A DNA stretch of 56,565 nt, from positions 108,779 through 165,343 of the forward strand of contig JAENYE010000002.1 of assembly GCA_016841955.1 (NCBI GenBank), read 5' to 3'. Under the pieces are notes generated by a model that saw nothing but the letters and a program-made list of their open reading frames with translations, searched no databases and was not told where the DNA came from. Of the stretch, positions 1 through 46,760 are shown piece after piece. The position numbers were made by a program, and so were the translations under genes. How positions within the stretch are numbered: the first letter of the stretch is position 1; each line of letters starts with the position of its first letter. This DNA comes from Methanobacteriota archaeon. Lineage in GTDB: Archaea; Halobacteriota; Methanomicrobia; Methanomicrobiales; Methanoculleaceae.

Positions 1-10
1 TCAATCGCAC

Positions 11-556
11 CTAGCGGTGCTCGAACTCCTGCCGGTCGCTACGCTCCCGCCAGTCGTCAATCGCACCGCGGAGCGCCTCGAGGATTGCCGCACGGACGCC
101 GTCCGTCGCCTCATCCACCAGGGCGGCATGCAACGCCCGAACCGCCTCCTCACCCCCGATCCTCCCGAGGGAGCGGGCGGCGCTCCGCCGCACGAACTCG
201 TTCTCGTCGCGCTGCATGGCGCGGAGGCGTGAAACCGCCCGGGGGTCGCCGAGCAGCCCGAGTCCTTTCGCAGCCATGTAGCGGACATGGTCCTTCCCGT
301 CGTCGAGGGCGGCGATGAGGGGTGCATACGCCTCACCGTCACCGATCAGTCCAAGCGCCTCTGCCGCGCGATAGCGCACTTTCCAGTCGCCGTTCTGCAG
401 CAAGGCAATACAGGCGGGTACGGCGGGTTTTCCGATCGCTACCAGGCCGTGCATAGCCCCGGCCCGCACCGACTTGTCCGGATCGGAGAGCAGGGTCTGC
501 AGGTCCTGATTACTCGAACGATCGTCTCCGGTCTCCGGTAGCATACTGTGGGTCAT
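11..556 (-). CDS. HEAT-repeat (PBS lyase-type) protein
   Basis: A 181-residue protein built almost wholly of short helical HEAT repeats of about 30 residues, recognisable by recurring VRYRAAEALGLIGD-type units from about residue 25 to 165. Such proteins are usually protein-binding scaffolds; the partner cannot be told from sequence. There is no signal peptide or membrane segment. The ATG at 556 is 15 bases downstream (in the gene's sense) of an 11-base-arm palindrome at 571-595, and a TATA-like stretch at about 610-618 would put the transcription start inside that palindrome, so the gene is probably controlled there. It is the last gene of a minus-strand stretch that also holds a small membrane peptide gene. 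Family call is firm; function is open. Confidence 0.85.
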   Translation of the reverse strand: MTHSMLPETGDDRSSNQDLQTLLSDPDKSVRAGAMHGLVAIGKPAVPACIALLQNGDWKVRYRAAEALGLIGDGEAYAPLIAALDDGKDHVRYMAAKGLGLLGDPRAVSRLRAMQRDENEFVRRSAARSLGRIGGEEAVRALHAALVDEATDGVRAAILEALRGAIDDWRERSDRQEFEHR

Positions 557-9945: not shown

Positions 9946-10066
9946 GCGACGGGCCGAAGGGCCGGAGCTCGAGAAAACGCGAAGCGTTTTCGAGCTGCGA
10001 CGGTTCGTTACGCGACGGGCCAGAAAGCCAGAGCTTGAGATGCCATCAGGCTTCGAGGACGCGAAG
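9946..10066 (+). repeat. Two diverged hairpin repeat units
   Basis: Unit 1 (9946-9974) and unit 2 (10012-10040) agree at 23 of 29 positions over GCGACGGGCC....GAGA. After each comes a palindrome: GCTCGA(GA)AAACGC-GAA-GCGTTTTCGAGC at 9967-9995, a 12-pair stem with a 2-base bulge, and a weaker one at 10041-10055. Related units in the opposite orientation occur at 46300-46415 with different stem bases. The units lie in the gap before the DHH gene and would be translated as an arginine- and glutamate-rich extension if a longer start were used, which is a reason to reject that start. Confidence 0.6.
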
Positions 10067-46083: not shown

Positions 46084-46192
46084 CAGTGCTTCCGTAAGGC
46101 AGGGGAGGGTAAAAGGGTTAGGGACACCCGGGTCTGCACGAAGAGAGGTGAGAGGGCTCACGCGAAGACCCGGTTTGGCTATGAGTAACTCC

Positions 46193-46276
46193 CCTTCGCG
46201 GCTTCGCGCTCTTCGCGTGAGGCTGTACTGTTATCCCCAGCAAGTATCTCACGCGAAGCCGCGAAGAACGCGAAAG
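46193..46276. repeat. Large imperfect inverted repeat of TTCGCG units
   Basis: Arm 1 (46194-46221) reads CTTCGCGGCTTCGCGCTC then TTCGCGTGAG; arm 2 (46248-46276) is its near reverse complement, CTCACGCGAAGCCGCGAAG then AACGCGAAAG. The arms enclose 26 bases. A further GGCTCACGCGAAGACC lies at 46156-46171. Confidence 0.6.
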
Positions 46277-46299
46277 TCGGTAGATGGGTATAGGTGACT

Positions 46300-46415
46300 C
46301 TCCTTCGCACCTTCGGTGCTCAAACTCCGCTCCTCACACCTGGCGGTGCTCACGTTCGCTTTCGCTCACGCCTCGAAACCCTGCGGGTTTCTCAATCTCC
46401 GGCCCTTCGGGCCAT
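46300..46415 (-). repeat. Cluster of hairpin repeat units, related to 9946-10066
   Basis: Short perfect hairpins follow one another: GCACC-TTC-GGTGC (46307-46319), CACC/GGTG (46338-46349), GAAACCC-TGC-GGGTTTC (46375-46391), and GGCCC-TTC-GGGCC (46401-46413). Read on the minus strand the order GGCCCGAAGGGCCGGAG-TTGAG-stem-TTCGAGG matches the units at 9946 with different stem bases. No gene occupies 46084-46517. Confidence 0.6.
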
Positions 46416-46517
46416 CGCATCCTACGGACAGTCGTTCTCCGGAACGTCGCTCTTCGCAGCTTTGCGTGAAACCATCTACGACTGAGGAATTTCCCGGGCT
46501 AAAGCTCGTGAAAGCTG

Positions 46518-46760
46518 TCAAACCCCCCGCTTCCGCAGCCGCTCGATCCTCTCCGCCACCCGCTGCCTCGCCTCCGCCGTAGCCGCGACGTCCCGGCGGA
46601 TCGCGATCTCCAGGATATCGCCCTCCCGGGCATCCGGGGGGAGGAGGGAACGTGGGAGCGTAAAGCGGACCGACTCGTCCTCGCGGAGGAGGAGGACGGC
46701 GAGACCCTCCTCAACCCGGTCGAGGCTGGCGAGGAACGTTGATCCGGCCTGCATGATCAT
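46518..46760 (-). CDS. DUF3006-type small protein
   Basis: An 80-residue protein with a beta-rich first half (FLASLDRVEEGLAVLLL, VRFTLPRSLLPPDAREGDIL) and a charged C-terminal helix. This fits DUF3006, whose genes often neighbour ComEC-like metallo-beta-lactamase proteins. Here the two genes overlap by four bases (ATGA), which supports both calls and a joint role. Confidence 0.78.
   Translation of the reverse strand: MIMQAGSTFLASLDRVEEGLAVLLLREDESVRFTLPRSLLPPDAREGDILEIAIRRDVAATAEARQRVAERIERLRKRGV

Follow-up and report, generated by a model that had tools for sequence, protein, structure and literature searches.

The window, which is the whole stretch of 56,565 nucleotides that was analysed, carries five units of a short dispersed repeat built from two small hairpins. 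The unit is about 45 bases long. Its hairpins stand in direct, fixed order and are joined by a fixed purine-rich linker, and the grammar read from about 150 units runs from CGAY through hairpin A, GGAGNNNGAG and hairpin B to CGA. The features of the window are as follows.

9947–9993, plus strand: full double-hairpin unit CGAC-GGGCC-GAA-GGGCC-GGAGCTCGAG-AAAACGC-GAA-GCGTTTT-CGA (cmsearch 64.8 bits, E 1.6e-20)
9951–9963, plus strand: hairpin A, GGGCC-GAA-GGGCC (alternatively GGCC-GAAG-GGCC), from the sequence and at the position common to 47 distinct A hairpins
9964–9973, plus strand: linker GGAGCTCGAG, of the GGAGNNNGAG frame (44 genome copies of the frame with up to 3 mismatches)
9974–9990, plus strand: hairpin B, AAAACGC-GAA-GCGTTTT, from the sequence; the orthologous site of genome G005 has the inverted loop
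10013–10056, plus strand: second, decayed unit CGAC GGGCC AGA AAGCC AGAGCTTGAG ATGCC ATCA GGCTT CGA (cmsearch 24.0 bits, E 4.8e-6)
46373–46417, minus strand: full double-hairpin unit CGAT-GGCCC-GAA-GGGCC-GGAGATTGAG-AAACCC-GCA-GGGTTT-CGA (cmsearch 63.8 bits, E 3.7e-20)
46305–46345, minus strand: unit with the B hairpin CACC-GAA-GGTG at 46318–46308 (cmsearch 19.3 bits, E 2.2e-4)
46337–46348, minus strand: B-type hairpin CACC-GCCA-GGTG in the array of the 46305–46345 unit, from the sequence
5–56, minus strand: end unit of a tandem array running past the window, with an A-like hairpin CTGGCGG...CGGCAG and B hairpin CACC-GCTA-GGTG (cmsearch 43.0 bits, E = 8.8e-13)
46115–46524, no strand: whole insertion, a hairpin array beside CTCACGCGAAG inverted-repeat elements; absent from G005 and G020 in the syntenic alignment

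The earlier note had placed a plus-strand unit at about 9950–9995 and a minus-strand unit at 46373–46413. Both are present when read directly from the sequence, at 9947–9993 and 46417–46373, and the further units it saw near 10030 and 46307, with GCC/GGC-like and CACC/GGTG stems, were also found. Its first B hairpin, AAACGC-GAA-GCGTTT, exists, but the stem is 7 bp long (AAAACGC); this stem is lengthened by flanking AGCTCGAG/CGAGCT only where a copy has that linker. The unit at 56–5 on the minus strand is a fifth, missing from that list, and its tandem array occupies approximately 108540–108810 of contig C8 of the same genome. The decayed unit has a stem ATGCC/GGCTT with one mismatch, and its counterpart in G005 is AAGCC-ATCA-GGCTT. 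Folded as single-stranded DNA, both window units are more stable than shuffles (z = -2.8 and -2.1), scores that by themselves do not separate DNA from RNA. Dinucleotide shuffles of the window contain no unit frames.

Stems, loops and covariation

Hairpin A has a stem of 5–6 bp and hairpin B a stem of 4–8 bp, each closed by a loop of 3–4 bases. The stems themselves are highly diverse. Those of hairpin A include GGCCC, GGACG, GGATG, GTTCC, GGTTC, GTCCC, GGTCC, GCTCC, TGCCG, TGCTG, TGTCC, TGTCG, TTCCCC, TTTCCC and CTCCCC, each with its complement, and those of hairpin B include CACC, CACTC, AAAACGC, AAACCC, AAAACCC, AAGACC, AAGGCC, AAGCC and AAAATTGC. The commonest A hairpin, GGGCC-GAA-GGGCC, either contains a central G-G mismatch or adopts the alternative fold GGCC-GAAG-GGCC. 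Chimeric units exist in which each arm comes from another hairpin, for example TGCCG-GGA-CGTCC. Units occur singly, in clusters and in tandem arrays of 44–51 bp period. They have no terminal inverted repeat of the kind that defines a MITE, starting with CGAY and ending with CGA.

Stem covariation, for which the earlier note had proposed a test, was assessed on the 47 distinct 13-nt A hairpins, for which pairing was no selection criterion. Standard pairs occupy 86.4% of stem cells (62.5% when shuffled), and two-sided changes number 52 (17 when shuffled). The covariation score is 0.568, as against 0.186 for shuffles and 0.035–0.085 when the partner is slid; the copies share descent, so that shuffles overstate the significance, and the slid control carries more weight because kinship of the copies inflates the comparison with shuffles. 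B stems are perfect in 243 of 274 frames under a parse that permits mismatches. The statement that the frame stays while the stem changes on both sides is therefore borne out, and stems that vary without compensation, which would have spoken against it, are not what is found. As both sides of the stem change within a fixed frame, the hairpin must in some way be acted on. A single event of template switching at an inverted repeat can alter several bases in a compensatory manner and can invert the loop, and both kinds of change are seen in this family: in RNA genes such changes have been attributed to template switching (PMC8794818), and arm homogenization and spacer inversion are among its recorded products at inverted repeats (PMC8604942). 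Two-sided change and covariation alone are therefore no proof of selection on an RNA.

The loops are far less free than the stems. GNA forms the loop in 42 of the 47 13-nt A hairpins and in 53 of 68 B triloops, where GNA outnumbers TNC by 53 to 3. Among 52 B tetraloops, 34 are GNYA and nine GNRA; RNA tetraloops would favour GNRA. The motif d(cGNNAg) was reportedly recognized as a stable DNA tetraloop by Nakano and colleagues in 2002. GNA triloops form extraordinarily stable DNA minihairpins (Yoshizawa 1997, as cited in PMC6479982). When all hairpins of the genome are taken together, GNA loops are in weak excess only, with dilution by chance hairpins, and this excess was set aside as evidence. 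The GNA and GNYA loops, together with the free orientation and position of the units, favour a DNA structure.

Distribution and orthologous sites

In the 2.43-Mb genome that contains the window (G000), the frame GGGCCGAAGGGCCGGAGNTNGAG has 44 matches with up to 3 mismatches, and a reversed control pattern has none in the whole genome. A covariance model built from 31 units, the means by which the earlier note had proposed to collect further copies, recovers at least 154 units there, so that the absence of such copies does not arise as an objection. Exact frame matches elsewhere lie on contigs nearly all of which belong to Methanoculleus or Methanomicrobiales assemblies. Over 50 units are present in 23 congeners, many of which have about 100 or more; one congener has 26 and ten have 1–12. 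A sister genus is represented by one genome with at least 119 units; in the rest of the order a few genomes give 1–12 weaker matches each, and a phylum-wide sample outside the order gives single weak matches only. The family is thus essentially confined to Methanoculleus and one sister genus. Copy number in congeners is bimodal (26 to over 110, or 0–12), which suggests a heritable factor, and this could be an enzyme. The unit-poor congeners are G002, G007, G014, G018, G019, G021, G023, G024, G026 and G034. Among these, several combine a smaller genome with flanking genes that have diverged further, and the difference may therefore be one between clades.

Genomic context was surveyed in five syntenic stretches of 143–245 kb, with genes called by a simple script and no curated annotation. 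In these, 93 of 107 B units lie outside called genes, and several of the remaining 14 are at the ends of seemingly over-extended ORFs, the 9946 locus being an example. Gene contexts are codirectional for 38 units, divergent for 26 and convergent for 23; in the codirectional contexts 21 units are in gene sense and 17 opposite.

Larger repeats are found in the same genomes. One dispersed element consists of CTCACGCGAAG(NN)GCGAAG... and an inverted copy CTTCGCG...CTTCGCGTGAG approximately 35–100 bp further on, and often encloses hairpin units; it occurs at about 46157–46280 in the window, at 244.6–244.9 kb of C8 of the same genome, and at loci L002 and L020. Another MITE-like repeat reads CAGTGGACCGTGGGGATATCGCCA ... 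GGGGACAGGGGAGGGGGG ... CCCCCCTCCCC ... and lies at 101.9–102.4 kb and 166.7–167.0 kb of C8, just beyond the window, as well as in many congeners; related species differ in its version or orientation at the same site. At the site matching C8:134909, G005 carries 425 bp with a frame pair missing in G000, for which antitoxin-like and PIN-like functions are guessed from sequence.

Comparison of orthologous sites demonstrates that units come and go. The insertion at 46115–46524 measures 410 bp in the window and 37 bp and 27 bp at the orthologous sites of G005 and G020, and at another site with matched flanks the window's genome has 209 bp where G020 has 3. Single units are also polymorphic between matched flanks, as a 37 bp insertion between G004 and G020 and as two insertions between G003 and G011. 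Apparent target duplications (GAG, GTG, GAAG) in single cases were rejected as a rule, as there is no general signal: the flanks of 136 units resemble shuffled ones at 2, 3, 5 and 6 nt. Matches of 4 nt are in excess (11, with a shuffle mean of 3.4 and a largest shuffle of 11), which fits arrayed units with a common spacer.

Shared sites reveal how the hairpins change. Automatic pairing of orthologous units yielded mostly one array pair (L143/L144) or a common larger-element context, and the cases given here are only those inspected individually. At the 9946 site, common to the window and G005, hairpin A is GGGCC-GAA-GGGCC in the former and GGACG-GTA-CGTCC in the latter; the loop of hairpin B is GAA and TTC respectively (AAAACGC-TTC-GCGTTTT in G005) on an unchanged stem. 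The same GAA/TTC inversion separates L153 from L163, and a GCA/TGC inversion separates L203 from L202, again with stems unchanged. At another shared site hairpin A is GTTCC-GTTA-GGAAC in L142 and GGGCC-GAA-GGGCC in L166 and L174. In the orthologous arrays L012 and L172 the block after the AAAACGC hairpin is inverted, as by recombination of two hairpins. Dispersal, recombination between units, loop inversion and replacement of whole hairpins in a fixed frame are directly observed in this family.

Mechanism of spread and upkeep

The loop inversions and A-hairpin replacements are hallmarks of template switching during DNA replication. There is about an even chance that the family is a genus-wide dispersed DNA double-hairpin repeat in which template switching directed by the hairpins serves both to spread the units and to keep their arms complementary. 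On the best reading the units are intergenic DNA, either parasitic or neutral, and not RNA genes or regulatory sites. Copying would take place on single-stranded DNA at replication forks, where the nascent strand would fold at a stable C(GNA)G hairpin and then switch template. The switched strand would be copied into another site or unit, with the shared words GAG, GCGA and CGAAG providing microhomology. By rewriting one arm from the other, template switching would leave the stems perfect and sometimes invert the loop. A tentative extension, rather unlikely as it stands, is that the replicating DNA unit is defined by shape and not by sequence: the heritable signal would consist of single-stranded C(GNA)G hairpins set in a fixed frame, the replication machinery itself would copy it to new sites with no dedicated transposase, and template switching would keep it complementary. 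It is not obvious, however, how template switching alone would bring a 45-bp unit to distant loci some 100 times over. Inversion should also randomize GNA and TNC, yet GNA dominates, and selection or a strand-specific copying enzyme may therefore act as well. The dominance of GNA and the bimodal copy number form the chief difficulty for copying by replication, as both would fit a strand-specific enzyme.

Such an enzyme is central to a rival explanation, in which single-stranded hairpin DNA is transposed in trans in the style of REP/REPIN-RAYT or of IS200/IS605 passengers, the enzyme being unrecognized, extrachromosomal or lost. The unit-sized insertions without target duplication, the structure-recognizable hairpins and the strand bias of the loops are formal features of single-stranded transposition. 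We nevertheless regard this as rather unlikely. A search of the window's genome for the REP-associated tyrosine transposase that the earlier note had proposed to look for (Y1/RAYT, PF01797) gave no match. This transposase is missing in 23 of the 25 genomes rich in units and occurs in five of the ten congeners poor in them, and was rejected as the mover. Positions C9:10365–10934 of the window's genome hold a reverse transcriptase domain (PF00078, E 1.2e-26). Most congeners are without it, nearly all unit-rich ones included, and it too was rejected because it does not track the units. Viral contigs gave no match to the two unit patterns searched, and the stem sequence is free, unlike that of REP.

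Units might also travel only as passengers in larger MITE-like elements (CTCACGCGAAG, GTGGACCGTGG..TATCGCCA, TTTTGGGATGACCTC) mobilized by ordinary DDE transposases. Of 40 unit loci in unbiased stretches, 22 have such an element no more than 250 bp away, compared with 5% of random points, and G035 of a sister genus has at least 11 identical units (L233–L243) at a constant position in a longer repeat; this repeat ends in TTTTGGGATGACCTC followed by unique sequence, and many contigs break there. The other 18 loci, the 9946 locus among them, have no such element nearby, however, and several polymorphisms consist of a single unit inserted into a pre-existing larger element, which argues that the unit moved on its own. 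The passenger reading is improbable. Least probable is that the units are structured RNAs or cis-regulatory RNA hairpins kept by selection for an RNA fold, the other possibility raised by the earlier note. Strong covariation, the proximity of hairpins to genes and the good recovery of units by the covariance model would all suit it. It is opposed by the near-equal use of both orientations, with codirectional, convergent and divergent contexts alike, by the absence of the window array from orthologous sites, by tetraloops that are mostly GNYA rather than GNRA, and by the tandem arrays and chimeric units; an Rfam search of the window returned only tRNAs and the eL15 leader, and the units match no family. 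What holds of the proposal that selection or copying acts on the hairpin is that the hairpin is acted on, as the A-stem covariation indicates, and that copying to new sites occurs, as presence and absence indicate.

Related systems and significance

The closest systems in behaviour are two kinds of mitochondrial element, the double-hairpin elements (DHE) of Allomyces (Paquin 2000, as cited in PMC2800124) and the repetitive hairpin-forming elements (RHE) of sponge (PMC2800124). These likewise are tens of bases long with one or two hairpins, are mostly intergenic, occur in many copies, vary in presence among close relatives and have no known enzyme; for the Allomyces DHE, as for the Methanoculleus units in general, target duplication is not reported. 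The present units differ in belonging to an archaeal chromosome and in their free stems, GNA/GNYA loops and fixed purine-rich frame, and the likeness is one of kind, not origin, as common descent is not expected. REP/REPIN sequences (PMC3116915) are similarly short intergenic palindromic repeats of approximately 100–200 copies in clusters and tandem arrays. However, two features that define REPIN are lacking: there is no Y1 (RAYT) transposase, and in place of inverted doublets of one palindrome the Methanoculleus units hold two different hairpins in direct order. Unlike REP, they also do not conserve their stems and use other frame words. Template-switch mutations (PMC8794818, PMC8604942) share the two-sided multi-base stem changes, the loop inversion and the retention of stems, but have been described as mutations of individual loci and not as the upkeep or spread of a dispersed family.

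The Methanoculleus marisnigri satellites Fam_48_45_4 and Fam_102_51_3 (PMC6749651) agree with the arrays seen here in genus and in their periods of 45 and 51 nt; G020 has a 45 bp array from C1:1923564 and a 51 bp array from C1:1051870. In that paper's text they are reported only as tandem repeats, with no reference to hairpins. They probably represent the double-hairpin family in tandem form. Literature searches found no paper on REP in Methanomicrobiales and none on DNA GNNA tetraloops, and so far as the literature searched shows the double-hairpin family is undescribed, the general kind being known.

The usual explanations for dispersed hairpin repeats are a transposase (RAYT) or an RNA function, and neither fits the Methanoculleus family well. 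Covariation is usually taken as proof of a functional RNA, and this family warns against calling RNAs from covariation only. The marks that template switching leaves in DNA are directly legible in it, loop inversion at orthologous sites among them. With thousands of copies in about 25 related genomes, it is a natural data set on the origin, perfection and spread of hairpins in a prokaryotic chromosome.
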